Below are positions 4,962 to 31,760 of a stretch of 32,873 nucleotides of DNA, one piece after another (position 1 is the stretch's first letter; each line of letters opens with the position of its first letter). The DNA comes from a virus. A program made the position numbers and the translations under genes. The notes under the pieces are model-generated. The model searched no databases, was not told the DNA's origin, and saw only the letters and a list, made by a program, of their open reading frames with translations. The stretch lies in IMG/VR virus record IMGVR_UViG_3300042560_001833, positions 1 through 32,873 of that record. One strand, written 5' to 3'.

Positions 4962-5644
4962 TATGCAGGCTCAATAACAATTGTAAAACTGCACTGGTTT
5001 GAAACTGTTCCAGTTGTGGTGAATGTTCCGGGGTCATCTGACGCCGCCGTCAACAATCTTTCGGCTGTCCCCATGTTTGGGCATTGCGAGTTTGAAGAAG
5101 GTGAAAAGGTTCCTTCAAGGAAATTGGAATAATTCGTTGGTGCCGCTGTATAGGCGCACCCTATGGTGCCTGCATCGCCACCAGAGCCGGCAATGAACAA
5201 ATTAGTGGTTGCAGCAACCGTGTCCGAAACAGGCGGGTCGCCGCTTGCCAAGGCCGTTTCGATACTGATAGTTCCGGCGCGTCTGATTTGATAGGCGGTA
5301 GAAACTTGGTGCGAGGCCACAGCAGAGTCCACTGTAAGCGTTGCGCCTTCTGAGCCACTTGCGGTTTTGTAAAATATGTTGAACCGACAAACGCCAGAAC
5401 CGTGACCAAATGCTGCCGTTAAAGAAGTCCAACCCGCTGGCGTAGTCAGAGCCCCGGCAATGCCGTTGCCGTTGAAGATAATCAGCAGCAGCAAATTCCC
5501 CGCGACAATCGAGGATGGCAAATTGTGTATCTGCGTCGTGTTATACGTGCCATCGCCATCAGTGGACGTGGACGAAACAACAGCAATCGGCCCGCGCGTT
5601 ACCGGCGAACTTAGCAGCGCTTTCCTGACACCCATCAGCGCCAT
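4961..5644 (-). CDS. Predicted beta-rich virion protein
   Basis: The 227-aa protein is rich in T, S, A and G and has short alternating hydrophobic stretches (NLLLLIIFNG, TTPAGWTSL, NIFYKTASGSEGATLTV). This pattern occurs in jelly-roll or Ig-like beta-sandwich appendage proteins of phages, where a 'LLLL...TPAGWT' segment is common. No enzyme motif or signal peptide is visible. It ends in a TAATG overlap with the 482-aa gene and begins four bases after the stop of the upstream structural gene. The nearest upstream match to a ribosome site is GGGATT, which is weak, so coupling is likely. The role as a minor virion or adhesin protein is inferred from operon position. Confidence 0.75.
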   Translation of the reverse strand: MALMGVRKALLSSPVTRGPIAVVSSTSTDGDGTYNTTQIHNLPSSIVAGNLLLLIIFNGNGIAGALTTPAGWTSLTAAFGHGSGVCRFNIFYKTASGSEGATLTVDSAVASHQVSTAYQIRRAGTISIETALASGDPPVSDTVAATTNLFIAGSGGDAGTIGCAYTAAPTNYSNFLEGTFSPSSNSQCPNMGTAERLLTAASDDPGTFTTTGTVSNQCSFTIVIEPA

Positions 5645-5648
5645 AAGG

Positions 5649-6398: not shown

Positions 6399-6409
6399 TT
6401 ACGTTTTCC

Positions 6410-6526
6410 TTATCCAAACATCAGGTTGCCGTTGCTCGAAAGGTCAAGCGAGAATGGATCGGCCGGGGCGCCGCCGACGGCGACAGTTAGCGCCGCGCGC
6501 CAAATGCTGAGCCCGACCGCGATCAT
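6410..6526 (-). CDS. 38-aa hydrophobic small ORF
   Basis: A 38-codon frame starts at an ATG that overlaps the spike-base stop as ATGA (6523-6526) and ends 11 bases before the next gene. The peptide begins MIAVGLSIWRAALTVAVGG and ends NGNLMFG. The same N-terminal style is found, to my knowledge, at the start of longer virion proteins in related phages, so this may be a truncated or minimal form of such a protein. Support is the overlap geometry and the tight fit between two genes. There is no independent functional evidence. Confidence 0.55.
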   Translation of the reverse strand: MIAVGLSIWRAALTVAVGGAPADPFSLDLSSNGNLMFG

Positions 6527-6786
6527 GCCTGCCATTCCAGAGTCAGGCCGCCCAGGTTCGTCACCTGGATGCAGCGGAATACGTTGACCCCCTTGACCAC
6601 CTGCTTGCCGGTGAAGATCGTGCCGTCCTCTCGCATCACGTCGATCGTGCCGTCGGCGCTCGCCACGATAGCCCGAGCAATGTAGCTCTGGCCGCCGTAG
6701 GTGAACGGCGTGCTGACGGTAACGGCGTCGTAGACGTTTGGCGGCGATTCGCTGCCGGCATAGTACCTGTTCGATTCACCAGCCAT
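6523..6786 (-). CDS. Spike base protein, RCAP_Rcc01079-like
   Basis: The 87-aa protein has the layout of the small spike-base family first described in the Rhodobacter capsulatus gene transfer agent and common in alphaproteobacterial phages. After a short lead comes YDAVTVSTPFTYGG, an 'ARAIVASADGTIDVMREDG' strand-turn-strand, and a closing segment VNVFRCIQVTNLGG. Members sit at the base of head or tail spikes. The start is supported by AGGAG upstream of the ATG at 6786. It is followed by an ATGA overlap with the 38-aa ORF and then by the structural proteins. The assignment is from sequence pattern and context; no search was made. Confidence 0.75.
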   Translation of the reverse strand: MAGESNRYYAGSESPPNVYDAVTVSTPFTYGGQSYIARAIVASADGTIDVMREDGTIFTGKQVVKGVNVFRCIQVTNLGGLTLEWQA

Positions 6787-10943: not shown

Positions 10944-11020
10944 GTGTAAATTCCCATTGACTATTGCGACGCCATGCTACATTGTACGCATCCAGAACGC
11001 AAAACCGAAAGGAAACGACA
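10944..11020 (+). promoter_or_regulatory. Divergent promoter region with TTGACTAT...CTACAT element
   Basis: TTGACT at 10957-10962 is followed, after 15 bases, by TACATT at 10978-10983 and the short dyad CTACATTGTA. The segment resembles the repressor promoter at 32338-32369 on the other strand (same TTGACTAT, TGCG and CTACAT blocks). The 15-base spacer is short for a sigma-70 promoter. A good ribosome site (GAAAGGAAAC) precedes the ATG at 11021. Confidence 0.5.
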
Positions 11021-11239
11021 ATGGCTGTTTTGAAAAGACTGTTCACCTGTAAGCCCGCAGAGGACGAAAGCGTTGACGCTGAGTACGTCCTCAATTCAAA
11101 TCCTGACATATCGATTCAGGTTTGCCCTTACGCCGGAGGCTATGCTGTCGGCAAATGGGTTGAATCAGAAGGCGCAATGTATGATTTAGGCACATTCACG
11201 TCGCTCGCAAGGGCGATGGAGATTGCGGTAACAGCATGA
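11021..11239 (+). CDS. Small protein of unknown function
   Basis: The 72-aa protein begins MAVLKRLFTCKPAEDESVDAE and has a compact mixed alpha/beta pattern (YVLNSNPDISIQVCPYAGGYAVGKWVES), ending in a helix. I do not recognise it. The start is chosen for its AAAGGAAAC ribosome site 4-5 bases upstream; a longer frame upstream overlaps the promoter. It is the first gene of a small plus-strand operon and overlaps the next by ATGA. A phage early-expressed protein acting on the host is possible, but nothing in the sequence shows it. Confidence 0.7.
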   Translation: MAVLKRLFTCKPAEDESVDAEYVLNSNPDISIQVCPYAGGYAVGKWVESEGAMYDLGTFTSLARAMEIAVTA

Positions 11240-11322
11240 TTGATCTCGCTCTCACCTTCACAATGGCCGGTCTAACCATCGGCTTTCTTAATCTGGCGCA
11301 TTGGCTGATTTTTCGCGCCTAG
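11236..11322 (+). CDS. 28-aa single-helix membrane peptide
   Basis: The ATG overlaps the upstream stop as ATGA. The peptide consists of one hydrophobic helix (LALTFTMAGLTIGFLNLAHWLIF) closed by RA. Overlap geometry and a clear transmembrane segment support it. The role is unknown. Confidence 0.5.
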   Translation: MIDLALTFTMAGLTIGFLNLAHWLIFRA

Positions 11323-11353
11323 ATTGTCGCAACAATAGGAAAGGAATCCCGCA

Positions 11354-11710
11354 ATGTCCGACATATACGAACAACACGACAAAGCCTTTCAAAATGTCTC
11401 CGCTTACGCAGTCCTGAAACAAGGCGCATTGATTGCCAAAGTGGCCTTCAAGTTTCCGCGCGATGGCGCTGGTCGCCTTCACTGCTATCTCCACTTCCCC
11501 GGCGTCCCGATGGTCCGTGGCCACGCGTCCGGCTACGGGTACGACAAGCGATCCGCCGCCATCGCGAGTGCCGCAAGCAAGGTGTCGGATCCGGAGCGCC
11601 GCTTGCTTGAGCACGCCCAAACCGCAATTCAAGCTATCGGAAACGATACTGGTAAGTATTGGGACAACAGACTCGCCGAATCCGGGTTTGAAATCATTCA
11701 AGTTGTCTGA
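11354..11710 (+). CDS. Conserved-looking phage protein of unknown function
   Basis: The 118-aa soluble protein has a good ribosome site (AGGAAAGGAA, about 7 bases before the ATG). The body contains beta-strands AYAVLKQGALIAKVAFKFPRDGAG and LHCYLHFPGVPMVRGHASGYGYDKRSAAIASAA, a pattern I associate with uncharacterised small phage and plasmid proteins, then a C-terminal helix. It has no catalytic motif. It lies 31 bases after the membrane peptide and is probably in the same transcript. Confidence 0.75.
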   Translation: MSDIYEQHDKAFQNVSAYAVLKQGALIAKVAFKFPRDGAGRLHCYLHFPGVPMVRGHASGYGYDKRSAAIASAASKVSDPERRLLEHAQTAIQAIGNDTGKYWDNRLAESGFEIIQVV

Positions 11711-11738
11711 TCTGTAGCAAACAAAGGAAAGACCGGCC

Positions 11739-11819
11739 ATGATAATCCTACTCGCCAAGCTTTTCCGCCTCTCCTGCATGCTCTTTTTTCTGGCGATCGT
11801 GATTCACGTTTGCACATAG
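11739..11819 (+). CDS. 26-aa membrane peptide
   Basis: Starts at ATG 11739, 11 bases after an AAAGGAAAG ribosome site. The whole peptide is a hydrophobic helix (ILLAKLFRLSCMLFFLAIVIHV) and it ends TAG at 11817-11819. The function is unknown. It is the second tiny membrane peptide in this operon. Confidence 0.5.
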   Translation: MIILLAKLFRLSCMLFFLAIVIHVCT

Positions 11820-11837
11820 CGCCGGGAGCTGCACCAA

Positions 11838-11876
11838 CACAAGCCGGCCGCCTGTACCATCGGGCGGTCGGCTTGA
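11838..11876 (+). other. Long hairpin without T-tract
   Basis: CAAGCCGGCCGCC pairs with GGCGGTCGGCTTG over 13 positions (one G-U), with a loop of about 13 bases, just after the 26-aa gene. No run of T follows, so it could be a mRNA stabiliser or a rho-type site rather than an intrinsic terminator. Downstream, GCATGCGT (11983-11990) and ACGCATGC (12016-12023) form a second inverted pair. A TTGACA box at about 11874 may start a promoter for the next gene. Confidence 0.45.
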
Positions 11877-12089
11877 CAGTCACACAACCGCATGCAATCG
11901 TCTGGATGGCCCTTAGAACGGCCGAAGCGACGGTTGCCCGATCCCCGATAGTCGGATCCCGTGTAGTGCATTTGTCCGGATGGCATGCGTGTATGTCCAA
12001 GGCTTGCGCCTAAAGACGCATGCGGCCGATCGCTTCGGTTTTCTAACGTCCGGACATCTACAAACCCTCTTAGAAACGGAAGCGAAACC

Positions 12090-12458
12090 ATGCCCCTGTT
12101 AAACAGTGAAAACGAAATACGGTTGCCTGTATCAGCAATCGCAACCTCCACAGGAATCGACTCGAACCGCCTACACCACTTGTGCCTGCTGAAAATGAAA
12201 GGCCTAAAAGCTTTGGGTCCGGTAACGCGCGTGCGCGGACTTGGGAAAACGGAAGTGATCTTTGAGCTAAACGAAACGCAAGCTTTGTACCTGTCGGAAG
12301 GGAAGCACACAAAGCGGATTAAACAGGCTTTCAGCCGCGCAAAACACGCGAAACTGTATTGGTTGCAAACCGAACGCTACGACGATGGGCGGTGGGAGAT
12401 CACCGGCCTTGTGCCGGAAGACGCCGCACTGGCGTTGCTGGCCAAACTATACCCGTAA
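12090..12458 (+). CDS. Putative Rha-like or regulatory phage protein
   Basis: The 122-aa protein starts MPLLNSENEIRLPVSAIATSTGIDSNRLHHLCLLK. Its middle reads EVIFELNETQALYLSEGKHTKRIKQAF, which resembles the core of phage antirepressor-type (Rha) domains, where 'LNxxQALYL' and a following basic helix recur. The C-terminal part differs from Rha proteins, so the family link is tentative. The start is preceded by ACGGAAGC. A terminator follows 22 bases after the stop. It could act on host or phage gene control. Confidence 0.6.
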   Translation: MPLLNSENEIRLPVSAIATSTGIDSNRLHHLCLLKMKGLKALGPVTRVRGLGKTEVIFELNETQALYLSEGKHTKRIKQAFSRAKHAKLYWLQTERYDDGRWEITGLVPEDAALALLAKLYP

Positions 12459-16101: not shown

Positions 16102-16551
16102 ATGAAAATAGCAGCGTTCGATCTCGGCACGAAAGTCGGCTTTGCCGTATCCGACGGGTCTACTCGGTACAGCGGGTCGCAGAACCTTGCGGCGAAGAAG
16201 CATGAAAACTGGGCCGCGCGGTTCGAGAAGTTCGTGGTGCTGCTCGACAGCATCGCGAAGAACGGGGTGCCTGACCGGGTCGTGTACGAAGAGGTCCGAG
16301 CCCACAAGGGAACCGACGCCGCCCACATCTACGGTGCGTTCATGGCCGAGCTGCACAAATGGTGCAATGCGCGGAACGTGCCGGTGACTGGCGTGCCCGT
16401 CGGGACAATCAAGAAGTTCGCGACCGGGCATGGCAACGCTTCGAAGATGGAAGTTTTGATGGCGGTCGAGAAACGGTACGGGGTACTCGCCCAGGACGAC
16501 AACGAAGCAGACGCGGTGGCGCTGCTCGAATACGCAAGGAGCGAAATGTGA
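16102..16551 (+). CDS. RuvC-like Holliday junction resolvase
   Basis: The 149-aa protein has an RNase H fold. The first strand is MKIAAFDLGTK with catalytic D7, the second acidic residue lies in VVYEEVRAHKG (E63 or E64), and the C-terminal helix carries QDDNEADAVALLEYA, giving the last acidic pair (about D133/D137). This matches phage RuvC-family resolvases, which cut branched DNA arising in replication before packaging. I start at 16102 because AGGGGAG lies 7 bases upstream; a longer start at 16072 would overlap the operator. The stop forms TGATG with the next gene. Confidence 0.88.
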   Translation: MKIAAFDLGTKVGFAVSDGSTRYSGSQNLAAKKHENWAARFEKFVVLLDSIAKNGVPDRVVYEEVRAHKGTDAAHIYGAFMAELHKWCNARNVPVTGVPVGTIKKFATGHGNASKMEVLMAVEKRYGVLAQDDNEADAVALLEYARSEM

Positions 16552-16784
16552 TGAAGTGGAGAAGCATAGAGACGGCGCCGACCGATGGCACGGACTTTCT
16601 GGTTACGGGCGGGGAGATGGAATCCGAACTCGCTACTTGGGATGAGGACTACGGCGTGGCGCTAGTGTCTCGAACGGGCTCAAGCGGGAGCTTTGGGTGC
16701 TCGCACACCTGCTATTACTCGGTGTGGGTGAACAACCCGACGCACTGGATGCCGTTGCCGAAAGCGCCAGTGGTGAAACCATGA
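16551..16784 (+). CDS. DUF551 domain protein
   Basis: The 77-aa protein has the DUF551 pattern: MKWRSIETAPTDGTDFLV at the start and THWMPLPKAP at the end. This small domain is common in phage and prophage proteins and has no known reaction. Here the middle is slightly expanded with C and S residues (SFGCSHTCYYSV). Its ATG shares a base with the RuvC-like stop (TGATG), and its own stop forms ATGA with the following gene. Confidence 0.85.
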   Translation: MKWRSIETAPTDGTDFLVTGGEMESELATWDEDYGVALVSRTGSSGSFGCSHTCYYSVWVNNPTHWMPLPKAPVVKP

Positions 16785-17140
16785 CTAGTGTGTCGGAAAA
16801 AGAGCAAGAAATCGCAAGGCTGCGCGAACGCCTGCAACTGCTGGAGCAGCACAACTACGCGCTGCTGCGTGGCGTGCCGGACTTCCCGCCCGCATGGAAG
16901 CTCACGGCCGGCGAGGCCAGGCTGCTGACTGCGCTCGCCATGACCGGCAAGGCCGACATGGAGACGCTGCTGAAGGCCGTGCGGCTCAACGACAACGCGA
17001 AGCCGGCGCTGGTGAAGACGCTGGTGTCGAGCGCGCGTCGCAAGCTGCAGGCGAACGGCGTGGCGGTGGAAATCCACAACGACCGCGGCGAAGGCTACAT
17101 CATGCGGGGGCACCTGCCGACCTTGAGGAAAGACAGGTGA
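16781..17140 (+). CDS. Coiled-coil / winged-helix DNA-binding protein
   Basis: The 119-aa protein begins with a leucine-zipper-like coil (about residues 4-30: SEKEQEIARLRERLQLLEQHNYALL). The C-terminal part (about 42-112) is OmpR/PhoB-like: LTAGEARLLTALAMTG, then a helix and SARRKLQANG, ending in the winged loop EIHNDRGEGYIMRG. It has no receiver domain. It is a likely transcription or replication regulator binding as a dimer through the coil. A related protein is encoded at 23093-23479. The start overlaps DUF551 as ATGA, and the end overlaps the helicase start. Confidence 0.82.
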   Translation: MTSVSEKEQEIARLRERLQLLEQHNYALLRGVPDFPPAWKLTAGEARLLTALAMTGKADMETLLKAVRLNDNAKPALVKTLVSSARRKLQANGVAVEIHNDRGEGYIMRGHLPTLRKDR

Positions 17141-18492
17141 ATGACCTCGATCCTGTCCTTCCGCTCCAGGACGAAGACGCAAGATGGCTTGCGGCGCGTG
17201 ACGCTCGTTATCTCGCCCATGAAATGCGAGTTGGCAAGACACCTACCGCTATCCGAGCATGTGACCTGCTTGGGGTACAATCTGTCCTTTGGCTCACGAC
17301 GGGTGCGGCTCGGTTGGGACACCAATACGCTTGGCGAAGATTCAGTTATGTCGGTCGTGGTAGTCAGGTGATGATGGCCGGATCCGAACAGCCGACCGCC
17401 GACGTGGTCATAAGCACGTATGACCTGGCAACCGGCGCCCTGTACGAGAAATTGATGAAGAGGCAATTCGATGTGCTGGTCCTTGACGAAGCCCACAAGC
17501 TCAAGAACAAATCCACCAACCGGACCGTCGGTGTCTTCGGCGAAGGTTGCGACCGGAAAGACGGGCTCGCCTCCAAAGCGGCCCACGTCTATCCCCTCAG
17601 TGGGACGCCAGCCCCAAACCACCCCGGAGAACTCTGGCCCACGCTAAGGGCTCTGTTTCCGCAGGCGATCATGCGCGAGAACGGGACGCCGATGCCGAGC
17701 AGTGCGTTTGTCGATCGGTACTGCAAGACGAAGTTCAGCCCGTATGGCGGGATCCAGATCGTCGGCGCGAAGAACAAGGCCGAGCTGCGCGATCGACTGA
17801 AGCCGTACTTTCTGCGGCGCCGATTTGCCGACGTGTACCCTGACGCTGCGGGGATCGAAGTGCAGCAACTGTTCGTCGATGCTCAGTCGAACCTGGACGA
17901 GCTGCGCGAACTCGAGAAGAGCGATGTGTGCGCGGACTTGATGCGGCTGGCGCAGCGGGAAGACGTGAGCGCCGAAGTGCGTCGCCAGGCGTTGAAAGAG
18001 ATCGACAAGAAGATCGGGATGCGGCTGCGGCGTCTGACGGGGATGGCGAAAGCGCCGGGCGTGGTTGCGTGGGCAAAGGAATATTTCGAGGACCGGAAGA
18101 AGCTGGTCTTGTTCGGCCACCATACGGAAGTTTTGGATGCGCTGTGTGACGGGCTGGCCAAGTACAAGCCGCTGCGTGTGAGCGGTGGCGTGAGCGGCAA
18201 AGCGCGGGCCGAGGCGGAACATCTGTTCCAGACGGATCCGACCAGGCGCGTATTCGTCGGCAACTTGATTTCGGCCGGCGAAGGCATTGACCTGAGCGTC
18301 GCCGACGACGTGGTGCTTGTGGAGTCCGACTGGGTGCCGGGTACGAACGAGCAAGCGGTACGACGGATCGTGAACCTCGCGAAGAAGCGCGAGAACATCG
18401 CGTGGTTTGCCACGCTGGCGAAGAGCATAGACGAGCAGATCCAGCGGACGAATGCGCGGAAGACCGCGGACCTGCTGGCGATTTTCAACTGA
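17137..18492 (+). CDS. SNF2-type DEAD/DEAH helicase
   Basis: The 451-aa protein is a compact superfamily 2 ATPase. Motif I is HEMRVGKTPTA (residues 28-38, lysine 34), motif II DEAH at 117-120 in LVLDEAHKLKNK, motif III LSGTPAPN at 154-161, motif V ISAGEGIDLS and motif VI NEQAVRRIVNL near the C-terminus. Phage members open or remodel DNA during replication and recombination. I choose the GTG at 17137, which overlaps the preceding stop (GTGA) and has GAGGAAAG upstream. An in-frame start further upstream would overlap the winged-helix gene. The next gene follows after 13 bases with its own ribosome site. Confidence 0.92.
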   Translation: MNDLDPVLPLQDEDARWLAARDARYLAHEMRVGKTPTAIRACDLLGVQSVLWLTTGAARLGHQYAWRRFSYVGRGSQVMMAGSEQPTADVVISTYDLATGALYEKLMKRQFDVLVLDEAHKLKNKSTNRTVGVFGEGCDRKDGLASKAAHVYPLSGTPAPNHPGELWPTLRALFPQAIMRENGTPMPSSAFVDRYCKTKFSPYGGIQIVGAKNKAELRDRLKPYFLRRRFADVYPDAAGIEVQQLFVDAQSNLDELRELEKSDVCADLMRLAQREDVSAEVRRQALKEIDKKIGMRLRRLTGMAKAPGVVAWAKEYFEDRKKLVLFGHHTEVLDALCDGLAKYKPLRVSGGVSGKARAEAEHLFQTDPTRRVFVGNLISAGEGIDLSVADDVVLVESDWVPGTNEQAVRRIVNLAKKRENIAWFATLAKSIDEQIQRTNARKTADLLAIFN

Positions 18493-18505
18493 AAGGAACG
18501 AAGCT

Positions 18506-18712
18506 ATGAGCAGAGCAGATGAACCGGCGTTTCCGGTTGAGGCGAGTTACACTGCAAGCCCCGGCCTCACTATGCGCGAGTATGCGGCGATACATATCGC
18601 TGCGGCTTTGGTCTCAAATCGAGAATTGCTTGGGCCAGATGAAGACCGTGCAAAACGTGCTGTGACTATTACCGACGTTCTTATTGCAGCACTGGAAAGG
18701 AAACCAGAATGA
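18506..18712 (+). CDS. Small phage protein, first member of the ELERKPE array
   Basis: The 68-aa protein starts MSRADEPAFPVEASYTASPGLTMREYAAIHIAAALVSN. This 'AFPV...GLTMREYFA' form is common in small phage proteins of unknown role. It ends IAALERKPE, which is the first of five ERKPE junctions. The ribosome site AAAGGAACG stands before the ATG. The stop overlaps the next start as ATGA. It differs from the following genes in its body and shares only the tail. Confidence 0.78.
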   Translation: MSRADEPAFPVEASYTASPGLTMREYAAIHIAAALVSNRELLGPDEDRAKRAVTITDVLIAALERKPE

Positions 18713-18993
18713 GCGACTACGCTGTTTTGCTTCGATATTACCGCGACGAGGACAGGCTCTTTCCGCTGCCACGGCTTGACGGAATGTATGTTCGCCCGCG
18801 CTATGTCATTCATCAGCATGAATTGGATGAGTTGCTAAACGCTATTGAAGTACTCAGGGCAAAGAACGAAAGACTGCTGGAGGCGCTGAAACAAGTTGAG
18901 CGATGGTGGCTTGACGAGGAAATGCAAAAGCACAGCGGAGCGCCTGCTTGCATGTTTGCGGTTCGCGCAGAACTGAAAAGGAAACCAGAATGA
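18709..18993 (+). CDS. ELERKPE-array coiled-coil protein 1
   Basis: The 94-aa protein starts MSDYAVLLRYYRDEDRLFPL. A zipper segment LRAKNERLLEALKQVE (about residues 48-63) is shared with the next three genes, and the end is ELKRKPE. Its own N-terminal half is unique. The ribosome site lies within the last codons of the gene before it. The function is unknown. The coiled coil suggests dimerisation or pairing with other array members. Confidence 0.78.
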   Translation: MSDYAVLLRYYRDEDRLFPLPRLDGMYVRPRYVIHQHELDELLNAIEVLRAKNERLLEALKQVERWWLDEEMQKHSGAPACMFAVRAELKRKPE

Positions 18994-19220
18994 GCGACTA
19001 CGAAACCGCAAGCGCCGCATGGCAAGAGCGCGACGACTTGGTTGCTGAACTGCTGGCCCTCAGGGCAGAAAACGAAAGACTGCGCACGGCGCTGAAACGT
19101 GCAGCCACGACCTTGGCTTGGATAAAAGCAAATTGGGGAGAACCAGGGATTAAGAGCATGAGGCGAGTGGACGAAGGACTTGCCGTTGCCGCAGCAGAAC
19201 TGGAAAGGAAACCAGAATGA
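18990..19220 (+). CDS. ELERKPE-array coiled-coil protein 2
   Basis: The 76-aa protein starts MSDYETASAAWQERDDLVAELL. It continues with LRAENERLRTALKRA (about residues 23-37) and an amphipathic C-terminal helix ending in AAELERKPE. The start overlaps the previous stop as ATGA. The zipper DNA is closely similar to that of the neighbours, and the remaining sequence is different. No known domain is present. Confidence 0.78.
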   Translation: MSDYETASAAWQERDDLVAELLALRAENERLRTALKRAATTLAWIKANWGEPGIKSMRRVDEGLAVAAAELERKPE

Positions 19221-19492
19221 CCGACTACGACGGATTGCTTGCAAAGCTGCGAAGATTTGAGCGCAAGGAAGGGGATGCGCTTTCGGGGGAGGCTGCCGAC
19301 GCCATCGAAGCCCTGATACGTGAATGGAACAAATTCAGGGCAGAGAACGAAAAACTGCGGGAGGCGCTGTTTGCAGCCCGTGACGGCCTCCGCTGGTCGA
19401 AAATCCATTTGCGCCAGCATGGCACGGGGTCGGTTTCTGTTGAAGTCGCGTTAGACGCAACAGAAAAAGCACTGGAAAGGAAACCAGAATGA
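19217..19492 (+). CDS. ELERKPE-array coiled-coil protein 3
   Basis: The 91-aa protein starts MTDYDGLLAKLRRFERKEGDALSGEAADAIEALI. The segment FRAENEKLREALFAA (about residues 40-54) is the common zipper. The C-terminus is TEKALERKPE. Together with the next gene it has an 'ADAIEALI / ANALETLI' helix before the zipper, so the two are the closest pair in the array. The function is unknown. Confidence 0.78.
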   Translation: MTDYDGLLAKLRRFERKEGDALSGEAADAIEALIREWNKFRAENEKLREALFAARDGLRWSKIHLRQHGTGSVSVEVALDATEKALERKPE

Positions 19493-19794
19493 CCGACTAC
19501 GCCAGGATTGCGGGAAATCTGCGAAGAATAGCGGCTCGCAACGAATACGATCAGCTATCCGACCGCAAAGATACAAGCACCGAATGGCACGCCGCCAACG
19601 CCCTCGAAACCCTTATCCGCGAACGGGACGAGGCGAGGGCAGAGAACGAAAGACTGCGCACGGCGCTTGAATGCTATGGTGAACAGGCGCGGCTTGCAAA
19701 GCTAATCCACGCCGAAGGCGATCTAGGGCGGCACAGGCTTGCGAAAGATGGCGGCGACCGCGCCCGCGCAGAACTGGAAAGGAAACCAGAATGA
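19489..19794 (+). CDS. ELERKPE-array coiled-coil protein 4
   Basis: The 101-aa protein starts MTDYARIAGNLRRIAARNEYDQLSDRK. It has the helix ANALETLIRERDEARAENERLRTALE (about residues 37-62) and ends RAELERKPE. It is the last soluble member of the array. The final junction repeats the ribosome site for a short membrane ORF. The function is unknown. Confidence 0.78.
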   Translation: MTDYARIAGNLRRIAARNEYDQLSDRKDTSTEWHAANALETLIRERDEARAENERLRTALECYGEQARLAKLIHAEGDLGRHRLAKDGGDRARAELERKPE

Positions 19795-19892
19795 CACCTT
19801 GGGAACTATCTGCCGCCATCGAAAGCATCGCGCCAGCCATCGCAATTCTTGCGGCTGCTGTCCTTTATTGGAACTATGAGAGGACGAAATGA
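19791..19892 (+). CDS. 33-aa membrane peptide closing the ELERKPE array
   Basis: The ATG overlaps the previous stop (ATGA) and uses the same repeated ribosome site. The peptide MTPWELSAAIESIAPAIAILAAAVLYWNYERTK has one transmembrane helix (about residues 10-27). It lacks the zipper and the ERKPE tail of the other members. Confidence 0.6.
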   Translation: MTPWELSAAIESIAPAIAILAAAVLYWNYERTK

Positions 19893-19896: not shown

Positions 19897-19924
19897 TACA
19901 CTACGCAAAATTTGACGTAGTGTA
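19897..19924 (+). other. Short perfect hairpin after the array
   Basis: TACACTACG (19897-19905) pairs with CGTAGTGTA (19916-19924) around a 10-base A/T-rich loop. It lies between the membrane peptide stop and the next ribosome site. There is no T-tract, so it may be an operator or mRNA element. The CTAC/GTAG halves recall the operator-like palindrome at 32338-32347. Confidence 0.5.
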
Positions 19925-20397: not shown

Positions 20398-20886
20398 ATG
20401 GCAATCGAAATCAGGATAACGGGCGAGACGGCGGAGCAGGTTCTGGCCGATCTGGTGAAACTCGCTGGGCAGAACACGATCATCGAGTGGAAAGGGATCG
20501 ACGCGGAAGATACGTCGCAGCCGGCACCGCAGCCGCAGAGCGAGAGCGAGCCAAAGGGCCGGCGTGGCCGCCCGCGGAAGTCCGAGAGTGGCAAGACCGA
20601 GGAATCCTATGTCGAGCCTGCGGAAACTTCCGGACCAGTGCCGCCAACCGAGGCGCCCGCTTCCTCTGCACCTGCCGCTGAGCCAGTCGCCGAGCCGGTC
20701 GAAGACCTGAAGGCGCTGCAGAACGAGTGCCGTGTCATGTCTGCGGAGCTGGTCAGCAAGAAGATACTCGACGCCGGCTCGATCACGAAGATGATCCGCG
20801 AGGCTGGCGCCGAGAAGATCGGCGAGCTGACCGTCGACGGGCTCAAGGCGCTGAAGTTCAAGCTCGAGCGGGAACTGTCGAAGTGA
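20398..20886 (+). CDS. Phage protein with AT-hook-like linker
   Basis: The 162-aa protein has a small N-terminal domain (MAIEIRITGETAEQVLADLVKLAG), then a proline- and glutamate-rich linker containing KGRRGRPRKSE (an AT-hook-like RGRPRK motif, about residues 54-64), and a helical C-terminal domain (residues 100-162). It stands just before the nuclease-like and ssDNA-binding genes, the usual place for a helper of recombination or replication. The role is otherwise unknown. The stop overlaps the next start (GTGA). Confidence 0.75.
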   Translation: MAIEIRITGETAEQVLADLVKLAGQNTIIEWKGIDAEDTSQPAPQPQSESEPKGRRGRPRKSESGKTEESYVEPAETSGPVPPTEAPASSAPAAEPVAEPVEDLKALQNECRVMSAELVSKKILDAGSITKMIREAGAEKIGELTVDGLKALKFKLERELSK

Positions 20887-22049
20887 ACCACGCCGACCGT
20901 TTCCACAGCAAGCTGAGCCCATCCGGCGCGAAGCGCTTTATGGCGTGCCCTGGCAGCATTCGATTGTCAGAAGGCATTCCCCGCCGTGACAGCGTCTTCA
21001 GCGCCGAAGGGACCGCAGCCCACGAACTTGCGGAGAAGTGCCTGACGACAGGCTTCGACGCGGCCAAGTATCTCGGCGAGAAGATCGGCGAGTTCGAAGT
21101 GACCGACGAAATGGCGCACGCCGTGCAGTCCTACGTCGACTACGTGCGGGGGTTCATCGAGCGCGGGTGGGTTGTCACGTTGGAAGAGCGGGTCGATCTC
21201 GGCCACATCGTCGACGGCATGTCGGGCACTGCCGACTGCTACGCCTACAAGGACGGGCACCTGTTCGTGATCGAATACAAGCACGGCAGGGGCGTCGCGG
21301 TCGAAGTCGACCAGAACCCGCAGCCCATGTGCTACGGCCTCGGTGTGATGAAGCGGCTCGGCAACCAGGCCAAGTTCACGAAGGTCAGCCTCACCATCGT
21401 CCAGCCGCGGGCCTCGCACCCGCGCGGCGGGATCCGCACGTGGGAAACCACGCCGGCCCGACTGGAAGAGTTTGCCGGCGAGCTTGCCGACGCGGCGTTC
21501 GCTACGCTCGATCCGGACGCGCCGCTGGTGCCCGGTGAGTGGTGCCAGTTCTGCCCGGCCGCCGACGCGAATGTCTGCCCTGCGCTGAAAGAGCAGGCAC
21601 TGGCGCTCGCTGCGGAAGAATTCGAGGACGCCAGCTATGCCGGGCTCAGCAACGAAGAACTCGGCGACTTGCTCGACAAGGTTTCGAACGTCGAGACGTG
21701 GTGCAAGAAGCTGCGCGAATACGCGAACGCCCAGGCGAAGGTCGGCCGCATGCCGATCGGCTACAAATGGGTGGAAAAGCGGGCTACCCGGAAGTGGTCG
21801 GACGAGGAATCGGTCGCAGCGAATTTGCGATTGGTGATGGACTTCACGGACGAGCAGATTTTCGAGCGGAAGCTGAAGAGCCCGCCGCAGATCGAAAAGC
21901 TCGTCGGGAAGAAGGACTTCGGTGTGCTTCGGCCGCTGATAGTTCAGCAGTCGAGCGGGCTTGTGCTGGCGCCGCTCGGAGATCCACGGCCTGAAGCGCA
22001 GCCAAATGCGGCAAGCGAATTCGAGGCCGTAAGCATGGATGATGAGTAG
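20883..22049 (+). CDS. DUF2800 protein (PD-(D/E)XK/RecB-like nuclease family)
   Basis: The 388-aa protein has the DUF2800 layout. The N-terminal SPSGAKRFMACPGSIRLSEG is followed by GTAAHELAEKCL, then GMSGTADCYAY and HLFVIEYKHGRGVAVE, a PD-(D/E)XK-like core in which the E-x-K of EYK is the likely metal site. The C-terminal EWCQFCPAADANVCPA contains cysteines as in AddB/Cas4-like Fe-S nucleases. Its phage role is probably DNA end processing together with the ssDNA-binding protein that follows. The start is GTG (20883-20885), overlapping the previous stop. Confidence 0.88.
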   Translation: MNHADRFHSKLSPSGAKRFMACPGSIRLSEGIPRRDSVFSAEGTAAHELAEKCLTTGFDAAKYLGEKIGEFEVTDEMAHAVQSYVDYVRGFIERGWVVTLEERVDLGHIVDGMSGTADCYAYKDGHLFVIEYKHGRGVAVEVDQNPQPMCYGLGVMKRLGNQAKFTKVSLTIVQPRASHPRGGIRTWETTPARLEEFAGELADAAFATLDPDAPLVPGEWCQFCPAADANVCPALKEQALALAAEEFEDASYAGLSNEELGDLLDKVSNVETWCKKLREYANAQAKVGRMPIGYKWVEKRATRKWSDEESVAANLRLVMDFTDEQIFERKLKSPPQIEKLVGKKDFGVLRPLIVQQSSGLVLAPLGDPRPEAQPNAASEFEAVSMDDE

Positions 22050-22069: not shown

Positions 22070-22696
22070 ATGGCAAGAGATTTCAATGCGTTTGTGCCCG
22101 GCAAGAAAGAGGGCACGATTCACTCTCCGAAGTGCCGCCTGATCTATCCGTCGCTTTTCGAAGCAGTGGACATGAAGGGCAACCCCAAGGGACCGGAAGA
22201 AAAGCTCCGGTATCGCCTGACGATACTGGTGCCGACGAAGGCCGACCTGACGTTGCTGCGCGAGCGCGTCGAGGCGGTGATACAGGACGAAGCGCCGGCC
22301 AAGGACCGCTCGACGGCCCGCAAGCCGTGGCTGAAGACGGCGGATTCGAAGGCGCTGGAAAAGTACAGCGATGAGTTTCCCGTCATGCTGCGCGTTCACA
22401 GCAAGTACGCGCCGCAGGTGGTCGGGCCGGATCCGACGCGGGCGCTCACCGAGGACGAAGTCTATTCAGGCCGGTGGGGCGTCGTGTCGCTCAACCCGTA
22501 TTGGTACGGCTCGATCGACGGCGGCAAGCCGGGCGTGGCTCTCGGCATGGGCAACGTGCAGTACCTCGATCATGCCGACAAGATCGGCGGGTCGCGTGTG
22601 ACTGCCGAGGACGAGTTCGAACCGGCTGACGATGTCGAAGATTCGGCACCGCCCAGTGCACGGGGCAACAGCACTTCTGACGATCTCTTCGGGTAA
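22070..22696 (+). CDS. DUF2815 ssDNA-binding protein
   Basis: The 208-aa protein matches DUF2815 (T7 gp2.5-like OB-fold): KCRLIYPSLFEAVDMKGNPKGPEEKLRYRLTILVP, then VVSLNPYWYGSIDGGKPGVALGMGNVQYLD. It ends in a strongly acidic tail (EDEFEPADDVEDSA...SDDLFG), which is the usual partner-binding tail of phage SSBs. Pairing with DUF2800 just upstream is the usual arrangement. A purine-rich ribosome site AGAGGAAAA lies about 9 bases before the ATG, and another start is unlikely. Confidence 0.92.
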   Translation: MARDFNAFVPGKKEGTIHSPKCRLIYPSLFEAVDMKGNPKGPEEKLRYRLTILVPTKADLTLLRERVEAVIQDEAPAKDRSTARKPWLKTADSKALEKYSDEFPVMLRVHSKYAPQVVGPDPTRALTEDEVYSGRWGVVSLNPYWYGSIDGGKPGVALGMGNVQYLDHADKIGGSRVTAEDEFEPADDVEDSAPPSARGNSTSDDLFG

Positions 22697-24024: not shown

Positions 24025-24758
24025 AGAAGTGGCTCGATGCGCTGATTGTCGCAATTTTCGTAGCGTATTGCATGGTGTGGTCGAGTGTCGCATTCGCACA
24101 GCAGAAGGTCGACGCGGCACTGGTTCTCGCGATCGACCATTCGAGCAGTGTCGACGCGACCGAATGGAAGCTTCAGCTTGAAGGCTACGCCGACGCATTC
24201 CGAAGCGATGCGGTCAAGGCGTCCATCACTTCCGGCTACCACCAGAAGATCGCCGTCGCGGTGTTCCGGTGGTCCGACTACTCCATGCAAGAAACCTTGA
24301 TCGGGTGGACGATCCTCGACGGCCCGGAAGCGGCCGACATGCTCGCCGCGCAGATCATGCAGTTCTCCAAGCTGCCGGCACTCAATGGCACCTGCATCGC
24401 GGGCGCGCTGGTGTTTGCTGGCGAAATGCTGAAGGCCGCGCCGTGGGCCGAGCGCCAGGTGATCGACGTGAGTGGCGACGAAGCCGAAAGCTGCGGCCCG
24501 AACGGTCCGTATGCAAGGCAGGCTAGAGACGCGCTGGTCGACTTGGGCGTGCAGATCAACGGACTGCCGATCCTGCAGGCGGAAGTGCCGGTGGTCTACG
24601 GGATCCCGGCCGGTGGCGACACCAACAAGAACATCGAGCGCTTCTACAGCGAGAACGTCGTCGGCGGGCCCGGTGCGTTCATGGTCACGGCCAACGGCTT
24701 CGGCGAGTTTGCGATGGCGGTCCAACGCAAGCTGTTGCTTGAGATCGCGGGGCTGTGA
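24021..24758 (+). CDS. Secreted DUF1194 VWA-like protein
   Basis: The 245-aa protein has a signal peptide (MKKWLDALIVAIFVAYCMVWSSVAFA, cut likely after about residue 26), then a von Willebrand A fold with MIDAS-like AIDHSSSVDATEW and IDVSGDEAE. This is the DUF1194 family of alphaproteobacteria, whose function is unknown. The phage copy would be exported. Such cargo (a 'moron') could change host surface or adhesion, but that is inference. It lies between the HD hydrolase and methyltransferase, overlapping both (ATGA and TGATG), so it is firmly embedded in the operon. Confidence 0.88.
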   Translation: MKKWLDALIVAIFVAYCMVWSSVAFAQQKVDAALVLAIDHSSSVDATEWKLQLEGYADAFRSDAVKASITSGYHQKIAVAVFRWSDYSMQETLIGWTILDGPEAADMLAAQIMQFSKLPALNGTCIAGALVFAGEMLKAAPWAERQVIDVSGDEAESCGPNGPYARQARDALVDLGVQINGLPILQAEVPVVYGIPAGGDTNKNIERFYSENVVGGPGAFMVTANGFGEFAMAVQRKLLLEIAGL

Positions 24759-25660
24759 TGGCGGCCTATTACAACGAGCACGACCCGAAGGCGGCCGCGT
24801 GGCTGCGTGAGCTAATCAAGGCGGGGCTGATAGCGCCCGGCGAAGTCGACGAAAGGTCGATCGAGGATGTCGTACCAAACGAACTCAACGGGTTTACCCA
24901 GTGCCATTTCTTCGCAGGAATCGGCGTCTGGTCCTACGCACTCAGGCTCGCCGGTTGGCCCGACGACAGGCCGGTTTGGACAGGATCCTGCCCTTGCCAG
25001 CCTTTCTCCGCGGCAGGCAAAAGAGGCGGGACTGCTGATGAGCGTCATTTGTGGCCAGCCTTCCAGTTTCTCATCGAACAGTGCCGCCCTGCAATCGTCC
25101 TTGGAGAACAGGTTGCGAGCAAGGACGGCCTCGCTTGGCTCGACACTGTACGCGCTGACCTGGAAGCATCGGGTTACGCCGTCGGGGCTGCGGATCTGTG
25201 CGCTGCGGGCGTCGGCGCGCCGCATATCAGACAAAGGCTCTGGTTCGTTGGAAAGCGCGGAGCCGAAAGGCTGGTGGGGAACGCCGACCGTGCAGAACGC
25301 GAGGCACGCGGCGTTCAGCCCATCGGAGCAGGAACGCGATCCGAACGTGTTGCACAATCAGGTGCATCTGGCGGGCTGGCCGACACCGACGACGCGCGAC
25401 TGGAAGGATGGCAGCGAGCAGCCGAACGTGCCGATCAACAGCCTGTTGGAGCGGGAAGTGTGGGCGGCGGGCCCGGCCCGACTAACGGCCACTGGCGAAC
25501 TGCTGACTGGCTCCACTGCCGGGATGGAAAGTGGCGGCCAGTTGAACCCGGCACATTCCCGTTGGTTCATGGGGCTTCCGAGCGAGTGGGACGACTGCGG
25601 GGTTACGGCAATGCAGTCGTTGCGCAGGCAGCGCAAGCCTTCATCGAGAGTGTGATGTGA
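24758..25660 (+). CDS. DNA cytosine-5 methyltransferase (Dcm-type)
   Basis: The 300-aa protein has the C5 methyltransferase motifs: FFAGIGVWSYALRLAGW (motif I, about 51-67), GSCPCQPFSAAGK (motif IV, catalytic C80), GEQV in place of ENV (motif VI, about 116-119) and APHIRQRLWFVG (motif VIII). The C-terminal CRDGKWRPVEPGTFPLVHGASERVGRLRGYGNAVV is the usual ending of phage members. It would protect phage DNA from host restriction. The usual ENV is EQV, so activity is likely but not certain. It overlaps its neighbours (TGATG on both sides). A second long frame lies inside it. Confidence 0.9.
   Translation: MAAYYNEHDPKAAAWLRELIKAGLIAPGEVDERSIEDVVPNELNGFTQCHFFAGIGVWSYALRLAGWPDDRPVWTGSCPCQPFSAAGKRGGTADERHLWPAFQFLIEQCRPAIVLGEQVASKDGLAWLDTVRADLEASGYAVGAADLCAAGVGAPHIRQRLWFVGKRGAERLVGNADRAEREARGVQPIGAGTRSERVAQSGASGGLADTDDARLEGWQRAAERADQQPVGAGSVGGGPGPTNGHWRTADWLHCRDGKWRPVEPGTFPLVHGASERVGRLRGYGNAVVAQAAQAFIESVM
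24867..25655 (+). CDS. Overprinted ORF within the methyltransferase gene
   Basis: A second open frame of 262 codons runs in another frame through most of the methyltransferase gene. It is not random-looking. It contains LASLSPRQAKEAGLLMSVICGQP, SLENRLRARTASLGSTLYALTWKHRVTPSG, GWPTPTTRDWKDG and GGQLNPAHSRWFMGLPSEWDDC. These phrases I recognise as recurrent in proteins annotated in many phages as hypothetical or methyltransferase-associated. It starts with ATG 24867 without a clear ribosome site and ends at TGA 25655, five bases before the other frame ends. Expression is unproven. Support is the length, composition and the remembered family pattern. Confidence 0.5.
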   Translation: MSYQTNSTGLPSAISSQESASGPTHSGSPVGPTTGRFGQDPALASLSPRQAKEAGLLMSVICGQPSSFSSNSAALQSSLENRLRARTASLGSTLYALTWKHRVTPSGLRICALRASARRISDKGSGSLESAEPKGWWGTPTVQNARHAAFSPSEQERDPNVLHNQVHLAGWPTPTTRDWKDGSEQPNVPINSLLEREVWAAGPARLTATGELLTGSTAGMESGGQLNPAHSRWFMGLPSEWDDCGVTAMQSLRRQRKPSSRV

Positions 25661-25866: not shown

Positions 25867-27968
25867 GGTCGCTCCACATCGACTTCGAAACCAGATCCCC
25901 GGTCAACCTGAAAAAGACCGGCGCCTACGTCTATTTCGACCACCCGGACACCGACCTGTGGTGCGCCGCCTACGCCTTCGACGACGAGCCCGTCCAGCTA
26001 TGGGTGCCAGGCGAGCCGTGTCCGAGCGACGTGCGCGAGCACGTTGTCTCTGGAGGACGACTCGTCGCACACAACGCCAGTTTCGAGCGGCTCGCCTTCA
26101 GCAAGATACTAGGCCCTCGCTACGGCTGGCCGGTGCCGAAACTGCGCCAGTGGTACTGCACGATGGCGATGGCTCTGGCACAGGCGCTGCCGGCCGGTCT
26201 GGAAGATGCCTGCGCGGTCACGCAGACCGCCGTCCAGAAGGACGAAAAAGGCAGTCGCGTGATGAAGCAGATGGCGAAGCCGCGCCGTCCGCGCAAGGAC
26301 GAGCCCGCCGACAAGCTGCTTTGGTGGGACGACGCCGCCCGGCTCAACACGCTCTACGAGTATTGCAAGACCGACGTTGAGGCCGAGCGCTTGCTGGAAA
26401 AGCGCCTTCGGCCACTGTCGGATTTCGAGCAGCACATTTGGTGGCTCGACCAGGAGATCAATGACCGCGGCGTGGCAGTGGACGTGGAACTCTGCAACGC
26501 GGCTTTGAAGATCGTCGACGAGCAGCGCGAACGGCTCGACCGCGAAATGCGCGACATCACGAACGGCGAGATCGCCGGCACGGGCGCGGTCAACCAGATC
26601 AAGGCTTACCTGCGGGACTTCGAAAACCTCGACGTGGGCGAGAGCCTGGCGAAAGACACCGTGGTCGAACTGTTGATCCGGGCCGACCTGAGCGCCAATG
26701 CGCGCCGGATCCTCGAGCTGCGCCAGGAAGGCAGCAAAACTTCTGTCGCCAAGATCGACGCACTGCTGAACGGCACGCAGGCCGACGGCCGGTCAAGGGG
26801 CCTTCTGCAATACCACGCCGCGTCTACCGGCCGGTGGGGCGGTCGGCGCTTCCAGCCGCAGAACATCAAGCGGCCGCAGATCGACGACGTGAACACGGCG
26901 ATCGACATCGTGCGGACGGGGAACCTCGACTTGGTCGAATCGCTCTACGGCAACGCGCTCGGCGTCGTGGGCGATTGCCTGCGGGGCATGGTGATCGCGC
27001 CGAGCGGGAGGAAACTCCTAGCAGCCGATTATTCGAACATCGAAGGCCGGGTAGCAGCGTGGTTGGCCGGCGAGCAGTGGAAGATCGACGCCTTCAAGGC
27101 GCAGGACGACGGGACCGGACCAGAGATATACCTGCTGACCGCTTCCGAGATCACCGGCATTCCGCTTTCGAAGCTCAACAAGAAGAGCCCGGAGCGCCAG
27201 GGATTCGGCAAAGTTCCCGAGTTGGGACTCCAATATCAAGGCGGAGTGGGTGCCTTCCTGACGATGGCGAAAACCTACGGCGTCCAGATCGCTACCTACT
27301 ACGATTTCGTCACGTCGACAGTGTCGAAGGACGTACTGACTTTGGTCGAGAAGGGGTGGAACAGCCGCGGCAAATCGAGCGGTGTCGACCTGCAGTCGTG
27401 GTGGACCGCCGAGGCCATCAAGGTGCGATGGAGAGGCCGGCACCCGGCAATGGTTGCCTTCTGGCGCGAAATGGAAGACGCAGCGATCGCCACCGTTACG
27501 ACGGGCGAAGAGCACGAAGTCGGCAAGATCCGCTTCTACAAGAAGGGATCGTTTCTGTTCATGGAACTGCCGAGCGGTCGGCCGCTCGCATACGCCTTCC
27601 CGGAGATCGACAAAATGGCGACGCCGTGGCGCAACGAAGACGACGAGATCGTCTACAAGGACACGTTGTTCTTCAAAGGCACCGACAGCGTCACGCGCCA
27701 GTGGTGCGTCCAGACGACATACGGCGGAAAACTCGTGGAAAACGCCTGCCAGGCCGTCGCCCGTGACGTGATGGCTCAGGCGCTGATCGGGCTCGACGCA
27801 TGGGGTTACGAAACTGTTCTGACGGTGCACGACGAAATCGTTGCGGAGAGCACCGAGCGCGTCGGGACCGCCGAGCATTTCAGCGAGTTGATGACAGTGC
27901 TTCCGGACTGGGCGGATGGTCTGCCCTTGGTCGCGGAAGGCTTTGAGGACAGGAGATACAGGAAATGA
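25863..27968 (+). CDS. DNA polymerase, family A, with 3'-5' exonuclease
   Basis: The 701-aa protein is the phage replicative polymerase. The exonuclease domain has LHIDFETRS (D7, E9), AHNASFERLAF (about 69-79) and YEYCKTDVEAERLL (about 165-178). The polymerase domain has motif A LLAADYSNIEGR (D389), motif B RQGFGKVPELGLQY (R445, K450, Y458) and motif C VLTVHDEIV (HDE at 656-658). All catalytic residues are present, so both activities are likely. The length is usual for this phage group. It overlaps both neighbours by ATGA. The primase-helicase at 13821 and the SSB at 22070 complete the replisome. Confidence 0.95.
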   Translation: MRSLHIDFETRSPVNLKKTGAYVYFDHPDTDLWCAAYAFDDEPVQLWVPGEPCPSDVREHVVSGGRLVAHNASFERLAFSKILGPRYGWPVPKLRQWYCTMAMALAQALPAGLEDACAVTQTAVQKDEKGSRVMKQMAKPRRPRKDEPADKLLWWDDAARLNTLYEYCKTDVEAERLLEKRLRPLSDFEQHIWWLDQEINDRGVAVDVELCNAALKIVDEQRERLDREMRDITNGEIAGTGAVNQIKAYLRDFENLDVGESLAKDTVVELLIRADLSANARRILELRQEGSKTSVAKIDALLNGTQADGRSRGLLQYHAASTGRWGGRRFQPQNIKRPQIDDVNTAIDIVRTGNLDLVESLYGNALGVVGDCLRGMVIAPSGRKLLAADYSNIEGRVAAWLAGEQWKIDAFKAQDDGTGPEIYLLTASEITGIPLSKLNKKSPERQGFGKVPELGLQYQGGVGAFLTMAKTYGVQIATYYDFVTSTVSKDVLTLVEKGWNSRGKSSGVDLQSWWTAEAIKVRWRGRHPAMVAFWREMEDAAIATVTTGEEHEVGKIRFYKKGSFLFMELPSGRPLAYAFPEIDKMATPWRNEDDEIVYKDTLFFKGTDSVTRQWCVQTTYGGKLVENACQAVARDVMAQALIGLDAWGYETVLTVHDEIVAESTERVGTAEHFSELMTVLPDWADGLPLVAEGFEDRRYRK

Positions 27969-29695: not shown

Positions 29696-29998
29696 CTACA
29701 CGGCTGGTTGCGGTGCTACCTGTGGCGCATCGAACTTTGTGTCGCCCATCGCCTTGACGATATCCGGCGCCTTGATCTGCAGCAATGTCGGCACGCCGCC
29801 GCCCCGCTCACGCTCCAGTTCAAGTTCGCGCTTGCTAAACCCGCACGCCACCCACACCTCGCGCCAGCCTTCGCGACCTATGGCGTACATGTAGAAGCTT
29901 TCGTTGCCCGACCGCGTGTGCACGTCGCACGGGCCGTACTTCACCATGAAATCCCGAAACCAGTCGGCCGCGTAGTCCTTTTCCTTTTCGGTCAACAC
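29696..29998 (-). CDS. Unknown 100-aa protein in the attP-integrase interval
   Basis: The protein begins at GTG 29998 with GGAGACGACTGA just upstream. It has a helical N-terminus (LTEKEKDYAADWFRDFMVKYG), an aromatic mid-part (SFYMYAIGREGWREVWVACGF) and a linker ending DAPQVAPQPAV. It is not recognised. The tail APQVAPQ and its DNA (CAGGTAGCACCGCAA) repeat at the end of the next gene upstream. It is the last gene before attP, so a moron or regulatory accessory is possible. Confidence 0.68.
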   Translation of the reverse strand: MLTEKEKDYAADWFRDFMVKYGPCDVHTRSGNESFYMYAIGREGWREVWVACGFSKRELELERERGGGVPTLLQIKAPDIVKAMGDTKFDAPQVAPQPAV

Positions 29999-29999
29999 G

Positions 30000-30272
30000 T
30001 CAGTCGTCTCCTAGTGTTTGCGGTGCTACCTGCGGTGTTATATCGGCTTCAGTCGCGTCGTCGTCCCATCCGCCGTCTCCGCTCTCTCTGTCGAACCAAC
30101 CGGCCACGGTTTTTACGAGTTCGGATTCATGCCATTCCCACGGCACGTTCTCACCTTCCCAAAGAATCAGTGCGTAAGACTTGTCCGCCCTCTTATGACC
30201 CACAACTCGACCTATCGAGCGTGATTTCACGCCGGGGGTGTGTTTCACGAAATCTCCGACATTAAGCACCAT
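30000..30272 (-). CDS. Unknown 90-aa protein
   Basis: The protein starts MVLNVGDFVKHTPGVKSRSIGRVVGHKRADKSYALILWEG, a beta-rich SH3-like pattern with a basic surface, followed by an acidic linker and the end ITPQVAPQTLGDD. ATG 30272 has the same GGAGACGACTGA element upstream as its neighbours. The end LGDD is the same as the end of the integrase apart from one residue (IGDD). The function is not recognised. Confidence 0.68.
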   Translation of the reverse strand: MVLNVGDFVKHTPGVKSRSIGRVVGHKRADKSYALILWEGENVPWEWHESELVKTVAGWFDRESGDGGWDDDATEADITPQVAPQTLGDD

Positions 30273-30722: not shown

Positions 30723-31760
30723 TCAGTCGTCTCCAATGGCCAGTTTCAGGTGCGCCGGACTGTGGTGGCCATAGGTCCGCAGCACGGTCGTTACGGTATC
30801 TCCGAGCAGTGCAGCCACGTCGTATGGTGCCTTGCCCTTCTGCAGCAGGTGCGTCGCCCTGGTGTGCCGCAGAATGTGTGGGTGCGACTTGTCCGCCAGA
30901 CCGGCAGACTCGCAGAGCGATCGGAACGGCCGATAGAAATCGCGACCGCCAAACAGGCTTTCCCCGTCGCCGTTGGCGACCAGCCACCGGATGTCGTCCT
31001 CAATCGACTTGAACAGCGGCACGCGGGCCTTGCGCTTGTTCGTGACCACGGTGCCCTCTTCGTGCAGGTAGATCACGCCGGCATTCCAGTCGACCTGTGA
31101 CGCGGTCAGGTCCTGCACTGCCCGACGACGCGCCCCGGTGTAGTATGCGAGCCGGATGAAGCGCAGCAGGTGCCCTTCCGCCAGCATGAGCAGCAGTTCG
31201 AGTTCTTCCGTCGTGAACCACGCGGTTTCCTGCGTCTCGACCTTCGGGTTTTCGATGACCGGCAGTTCGGCCCGCGTCATGCGCTTCCATTTGACCGCGT
31301 GGTTCGCCGCCGCTGCCAGCACGCCAAGCTCGCGCCTAATGGTCGAGTTCGTGCCGGCCCGGTTCTTCCGGCGATCGCCGCCACCGACCTCGCCAGCGCG
31401 TCTCGCTGCCACATAGGCCCGGCACTTCGGCACATCCACGTCCTTGACCAGCACGCCCCGAAAGAACGCGCTCAGGTGCTTCGCTGCGTTGTGCTGGCGC
31501 ACTGGATCCGCGACCTGGTTGGCGTGCTCCCGCAGGTACTGGTCGAGGCACACGGCCACGGTCAGTCCCTCGCTTCCGGTTTCGTACAGGCCAGGGCCTT
31601 CGAGCAGGAATGTCCCGAAGCGAGCCTTCGCTTCAATCGGATCTTTTGTATCCAGAGAGAGCTGGCGCGTTCGCCGGATGGAGGCGTCGTACCAGTAGAC
31701 ATAGAACCGGCCGTTGCTCCTGCGGTCGAGCCACGGCGCTTCAGAGCGCTTGCGAGGCAT
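30723..31760 (-). CDS. int: Tyrosine recombinase / integrase
   Basis: The 345-aa protein has an N-terminal arm-binding part, a core-binding helical domain (about 70-165) and a catalytic domain. Catalytic residues are R211 in YYTGARRRAV, H295 and R298 in HPHILRHT and the nucleophile Y330 in LRTYGHHSP. The usual His/Trp before it is an aspartate (LLGD, D321), a variant I remember from other alphaproteobacterial integrases. It inserts the phage at attP, here probably tRNA-Glu. The start overlaps the excisionase frame by about 200 bases. The last 75 bases are repeated downstream. Confidence 0.93.
   Translation of the reverse strand: MPRKRSEAPWLDRRSNGRFYVYWYDASIRRTRQLSLDTKDPIEAKARFGTFLLEGPGLYETGSEGLTVAVCLDQYLREHANQVADPVRQHNAAKHLSAFFRGVLVKDVDVPKCRAYVAARRAGEVGGGDRRKNRAGTNSTIRRELGVLAAAANHAVKWKRMTRAELPVIENPKVETQETAWFTTEELELLLMLAEGHLLRFIRLAYYTGARRRAVQDLTASQVDWNAGVIYLHEEGTVVTNKRKARVPLFKSIEDDIRWLVANGDGESLFGGRDFYRPFRSLCESAGLADKSHPHILRHTRATHLLQKGKAPYDVAALLGDTVTTVLRTYGHHSPAHLKLAIGDD

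Follow-up and report, generated by a model that had tools for sequence, protein, structure and literature searches.

The accessory-gene slot of a temperate phage probably consists of small, exchangeable genes arrayed in tandem, which recombine at short repeated junctions and at a leucine-zipper block inside the genes. The junctions are constant and the gene content between them varies among phages, the breakpoints of the compared exchanges fall at the junction, and genes 2-5 of the array are three-part mosaics. The window, which is the whole stretch of 32,873 nucleotides that was analysed, is a 32.9-kb virus record with the gene set of a temperate tailed phage, encoding terminase, Prim-Pol primase, family A polymerase, integrase and a Cro/C1-type regulator. 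Six small genes lie at 18506-19892, with an SNF2-type helicase (17140-18492) on their left and a DUF2800 exonuclease (20883-22049) on their right, and the GC content of the array is 0.52-0.55 (versus about 0.60). A five-junction array had been recognized at this place in a preliminary description and was confirmed, but the unit given there was too small, since it actually spans about 18496-19892, from gene 1 to a 33-aa peptide beyond junction 5. The features are as follows.

17140-18492, + strand: SNF2-type helicase, left anchor of the array (Pfam SNF2-rel_dom 2.3e-12; 97% identity to the sister phage)
18489-18498, + strand: left breakpoint, with the partial junction CTGAAAGGAA across the helicase stop; blastn identity stops at 18498
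18506-18712, + strand: gene 1, 68 aa, MSRADEPAFP...LERKPE, without zipper and with a ribosome site of its own
18693-18712, + strand: junction 1, 0 mismatches
18709-18993, + strand: gene 2, 94 aa, zipper-bearing reading frame
18856-18888, + strand: zipper block of gene 2
18974-18993, + strand: junction 2, 1 mismatch
18990-19220, + strand: gene 3, 76 aa, zipper-bearing reading frame
19062-19094, + strand: zipper block of gene 3
19201-19220, + strand: junction 3, 0 mismatches
19217-19492, + strand: gene 4, 91 aa, zipper-bearing, N part homologous to gene 5 (z 9.9)
19337-19369, + strand: zipper block of gene 4
19473-19492, + strand: junction 4, 0 mismatches
19489-19794, + strand: gene 5, 101 aa, zipper-bearing, the zipper within one predicted 47-residue helix
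19613-19634, + strand: IRERDEA block, 22 nt identical to gene 2 of contig L014, another shared internal segment
19636-19668, + strand: zipper block of gene 5
19775-19794, + strand: junction 5, 0 mismatches
19791-19892, + strand: gene 6, 33 aa, last gene of the array, with one hydrophobic segment as judged by eye
19895, no strand: right breakpoint, beside the hairpin TACACTACG...CGTAGTGTA at 19897-19924 (fold -14.5 kcal/mol, z -2.6)
20883-22049, + strand: DUF2800 exonuclease (PD-(D/E)XK), candidate recombination partner (DUF2800 5.6e-92; phrog_69 exonuclease 3.1e-108)
22070-22696, + strand: Gp2.5/Enc34-like ssDNA-binding and annealing protein (PF10991 1.1e-19; phrog_112 6e-26)
24755-25660: C5 cytosine DNA methyltransferase (PF00145, 1.9e-13)

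The six genes are joined by five copies of the junction CTGGAAAGGAAACCAGAATGA, of which four are identical and the fifth has one mismatch, whereas dinucleotide shuffles gave a mean of 0.01 junction sites and none reached five. In every copy, the junction encodes the C-terminus L(E/K)RKPE of the upstream protein, carries the Shine-Dalgarno sequence AAAGGAAA shortly 5' of the next start codon and contains an ATGA stop/start overlap. All five copies in the window fall inside the array, and the other genes of the phage are without it.

Conservation was evaluated on 13 junctions taken from four arrays. Counted from the start codon, mean pairwise identity approaches 1 at -11 to +2, reaches 0.6 at -18 to -13 and drops to about 0.25, the chance level, beyond -20 to +13, the perfection of the core in the other phages' junctions being partly due to their having been found by that pattern. 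The core is RAGGAAACCAGAATG, and perfect conservation reaches past the ribosome site (ACCAGA). The junction is conserved at the DNA level: its codons are uncommon in this phage (AGG 0.08, CCA 0.11 and AAA 0.21 of their residues), and the chance of this spelling of LERKPE under phage codon usage is about 0.0002 per copy. Among the junctions of the window, perfect matches are 17-31 nt long; against L014 they measure 22-35 nt and against the other arrays 15-26 nt, and many junction pairs share only 15-22 bp. The initial figure of 20 bases holds for a near-identical element in all five copies, but the conserved block is longer between some of them and reaches 35 nt with another phage.

The earlier observation that genes 2-5 share a zipper and differ elsewhere was borne out, and the zipper proved to be a shared DNA block as well. 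The sequence AGGGCARARAACGAAARACTGC is present in all four genes (18856, 19062, 19337 and 19636), while shuffles gave 0. Each gene was split at the zipper, and N parts, zippers and C parts were compared pairwise. The 33-nt zipper showed 82-94% identity in every pair (z 9-13), the N parts were related only in the pair of genes 4 and 5 (z 9.9), and no pair of C parts was convincingly related (z -1.1 to 3.7). Among zipper codon pairs for the same residue, 46/53 (about 87%) were identical. Had the genes diverged under selection on the protein, synonymous sites would not survive between two erased flanks, and it is simpler to assume that the flanks were replaced. No other viral contig yielded the zipper DNA, which limits the support for re-pairing at the zipper to one genome. 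AlphaFold places the zipper inside one long helix (gene 5, residues 29-75, pLDDT 80-89 over most), a predicted structure that fits a coiled coil.

Apart from these shared parts, the genes resemble few known families. Gene 1 matches the C-terminal part of phrog_2201 (6.9e-07), a family of unknown function, and this match and a marginal one for gene 5 are the only phrog matches among the array genes. No convincing match was obtained for the array genes of the window in Pfam, NCBIfam and defence families (one weak defence hit, 0.0071), and no family match was found for gene 6. In isolated phages, the array had no match at the DNA level, and neither genes 1 and 4 nor the L014 cassette had one at the protein level. 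A guess from position only is that the small proteins act on the host early, as accessory factors. The C5 methyltransferase possibly serves self-protection.

Related arrays were found by scanning the viral collection, which yielded two contigs of a sister phage (L030 and L031, which come from two metagenomes and agree exactly over 8661 bp) and two unrelated phages (L013 and L014). In blastn comparison, the window and the sister are 95% identical over 16774-18498 and 93% identical from 19895 on. Between these breakpoints, the window has 1.4 kb with six genes, whereas in the sister two junctions and other genes take up about 350 bp. The left breakpoint lies inside a junction: CTGAAAGGAA is common to both phages, and the sister alone goes on with ACCAGAATG, so that it has the full element CTGAAAGGAAACCAGAATG where the window has the partial junction (18489-18498). 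The right breakpoint is located just past gene 6 and not at a junction. At the hairpin beside it, the stem is conserved and the loop changed relative to the sister, with a terminator-like score on the minus strand. The two phages also differ at 3505-6527, 10981-12450, 16551-16774, 25254-25470, 27095-27458 and 29722-30270, all places without the junction repeat; therefore, junctions are not the sole exchange route.

The array of L014, a closed contig (127-bp end overlap), has four genes behind an integrase: a homolog of gene 1 in first position, which matches phrog_2201 at 2.8e-11, a coiled-coil-like gene, a DUF551-like gene and a second coiled-coil-like gene. L013 has four junctions behind a primase-like gene. 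Matches of window DNA to these two phages by blastn lie mainly at the junctions, the only extras, both in L014, being gene 1 and the 22-nt block. In addition, L013 and the sister share a mini-cassette of about 90 bp, 94.5% identical, that starts exactly at a junction and has different genes on its left. Mosaic breakpoints thus lie at the junction element in the two exchanges that were compared (window/sister at 18498 and L013/sister at L031 7349), and a short sequence is kept at gene borders while the flanking genes differ between phages. Varying cassettes with constant junctions, the check proposed in the preliminary description, were found at the sister locus and also in two phages whose DNA is unrelated elsewhere; the contrary pattern named there, fixed gene content with junctions decaying like the gene bodies, was not seen in the relatives. 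Only four array types were found, and the comparison of exchanges is limited to these. A scan of about 157 loci for at least three like start regions flagged the window only, but such a scan misses cases like L013, whose array went undetected despite its four junctions since its last reading frames run off the contig.

The mini-cassette (MxSYGKSMFPNDYLAAQ; L013 8505-8594, L031 7352-7432) has a frame that continues through the second junction into the next gene, giving that gene an N-terminal extension with its internal start retained. Its assignment as a remnant of a gene-1-type gene was rejected as too weak (z 2.6).

Two other origins of the array were weighed against exchange. In an old tandem duplication, the bodies would have diverged while junction and zipper were kept by selection for ribosome binding and dimerisation, with no exchange between phages. 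Genes 2-5 do resemble one another in start (MSDY/MTDY), zipper and C-terminal end, the N halves of genes 4 and 5 are clearly related, and the zipper DNA is private to one genome. However, plain divergence does not explain gene bodies at chance level around a zipper with about 87% identical synonymous codons, neither gene 1 nor gene 6 is a copy of the remaining ones, the sister has other genes at the locus and unrelated phages have the junctions, so that this origin is already weakened and appears quite improbable. A less improbable origin, though still an unlikely one, is that the junction is the favoured ribosome-binding and start region of a phage group, recurrent or translationally selected, with random illegitimate recombination of which only translated products survive. 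The 16-mer AAAGGAAACCAGAATG occurs in 48 viral contigs, in most of which (some 40) it stands singly at the start of unrelated genes, so part of the junction is a common start-site sequence, and selection alone can place mosaic boundaries at gene ends without targeting (model in PMC3233612). On the other hand, the phage's other genes do not use the junction, with 5/5 window copies in the array; the conserved element takes in upstream codons that are uncommon (AGG, CCA) and can be as long as 35 nt, and the two compared exchanges break at it.

A regulatory site, either an RNA hairpin or a protein-binding operator co-regulating translation of all cassettes as proposed for the start-associated sequences discussed below, would account for perfect conservation beyond the ribosome site (ACCAGA), and a CTGG/CCAG hairpin can be drawn around the Shine-Dalgarno site. 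This pairing was originally thought to display the ribosome site in its loop, a proposal that the results do not support: the fold is weak (-3.1 kcal/mol), folding of the junctions is close to the shuffled background (z -0.15 to -2.2), and there was no match to Rfam. Moreover, the left arm is lost in 3/13 junctions (L013 8152, L013 8582 and L031 7429) and weakened in three more, with no compensating changes, while the right arm is invariant across the 13. Such a regulatory role is highly improbable, although a protein may bind the right half of the junction.

Exchange of cassettes at constant junctions is the part of the original interpretation that is supported, whereas neither the hairpin display nor the absence of described relatives of the layout is. 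The mixed dimers suggested there for the zipper proteins are a hypothesis. The latter claim was too strong, as two close kinds are described, boundary sequences and start-associated sequences (PMC3233612, PMC3029335, PMC3203893). Targeted mosaicism in lambdoid phages is classically ascribed to conserved boundary sequences, a proposal in which short identical intergenic sequences serve as homologous-recombination sites that swap neighbouring genes (PMC3233612, PMC3029335). The junction would be like them in serving as such a site, but the array has one sequence five times in tandem, within coding ends and starts and with the ATGA overlap; its junction recurs in unrelated phages behind different genes, and an internal zipper block is present too.

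The start-associated sequences (SAS/ESAS) of cluster K mycobacteriophages have a 13-bp consensus, GGGATAGGAGCCC, at the ribosome sites of varied small genes (PMC3203893). In a 27-kb part of Anaya, 14 sites with at most two mismatches were re-found, which form a sharply bounded block of 13 bp. Like the junction, SAS are a repeated short element whose outer bases could pair and which lies a few bases 5' of the starts of varied small non-structural genes (PMC3203893). The position before the start is thus shared, but the consensus is not, the core of the junction being a different sequence. SAS are scattered, predominantly follow intergenic gaps of >50 bp and as a rule do not code for the end of the gene before them (PMC3203893), whereas 5/5 junctions overlap the upstream CDS in one uninterrupted array, and the element is about 20-30 bp, codes on two sides and comes with evidence of cassette exchange. 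Integron cassettes also are small exchangeable genes arrayed between repeated joints; unlike theirs, the joints of the array are coding and show no attC-like folded site (weak fold, no Rfam match). No link was found between the joints and the phage integrase at 30723-31760. Overall, the array combines features of boundary sequences and SAS, and adds coding ends, stop/start overlap, tandem layout, presence in unrelated phages and a second internal block.

In the exchange reading, the junction would have a triple role, providing the last codons (LERKPE), the Shine-Dalgarno site and the ATGA stop/start overlap for the next gene. Recombination between two junctions would then insert or remove a gene with translation always kept, since the junction supplies all that a swapped gene needs to stay translated. 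The ATGA overlaps may couple translation; as follows from the sequence of this overlap, each cassette obtains its ribosome site from the preceding gene. Recombination at perfect matches of 15-35 bp has probably altered gene content within the lineage and between unrelated phages, and the zipper DNA has probably acted as a second, local crossover block that re-pairs N- and C-terminal halves. The exchange could rely on single-strand annealing, carried out by the exonuclease and the Gp2.5-like protein that the phage itself encodes. Annealing at junction microhomologies is plausible, since both genes are encoded just downstream, starting 1 kb from the array. A perfect match of 23-27 bp is needed by Redbeta and of 31-34 bp by RecA (PMC3945230); some junction pairs reach this range, but many (15-22 bp) fall below the Redbeta minimum. 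A wider proposal, which we consider doubtful, is that selection keeps a recombination platform in co-occurring phages, where a coding, translation-coupled joint trades single genes between unrelated phages and a zipper joint re-pairs protein halves, powered by the phage annealing protein.

Whether clean single-gene swaps in phages are targeted by short shared sequences, or are random and then selected, is an old question, for which arrays of this type offer a clear case for targeting and a short, testable substrate. Their sequence suggests that such seams let small genes be traded without breaking translation, and the mosaic genes suggest that shared coiled-coil DNA can drive domain shuffling in small phage proteins.

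Bacterial genomes were also searched for copies of the array in prophages. Across about 85,000 species genomes, the exact 20-mer gave one match, in a prophage of Mesorhizobium ciceri (L029 7596-7615, - strand), where it lies between protease-like and capsid-like genes. This match is a single copy and not an array, so prophage copies were discarded, and no array was found in 395 genomes of the family of M. ciceri. In addition, a second joint type, CTRARGGACAAGCCATGA, was observed at L014 517-534 (- strand) and L031 7684-7701, where it forms the ...ALKDKP or ALRDKP end of proteins. About 18 further phage contigs, which vary in GC, have it too, but as single copies, and it was therefore set aside as evidence of exchange.
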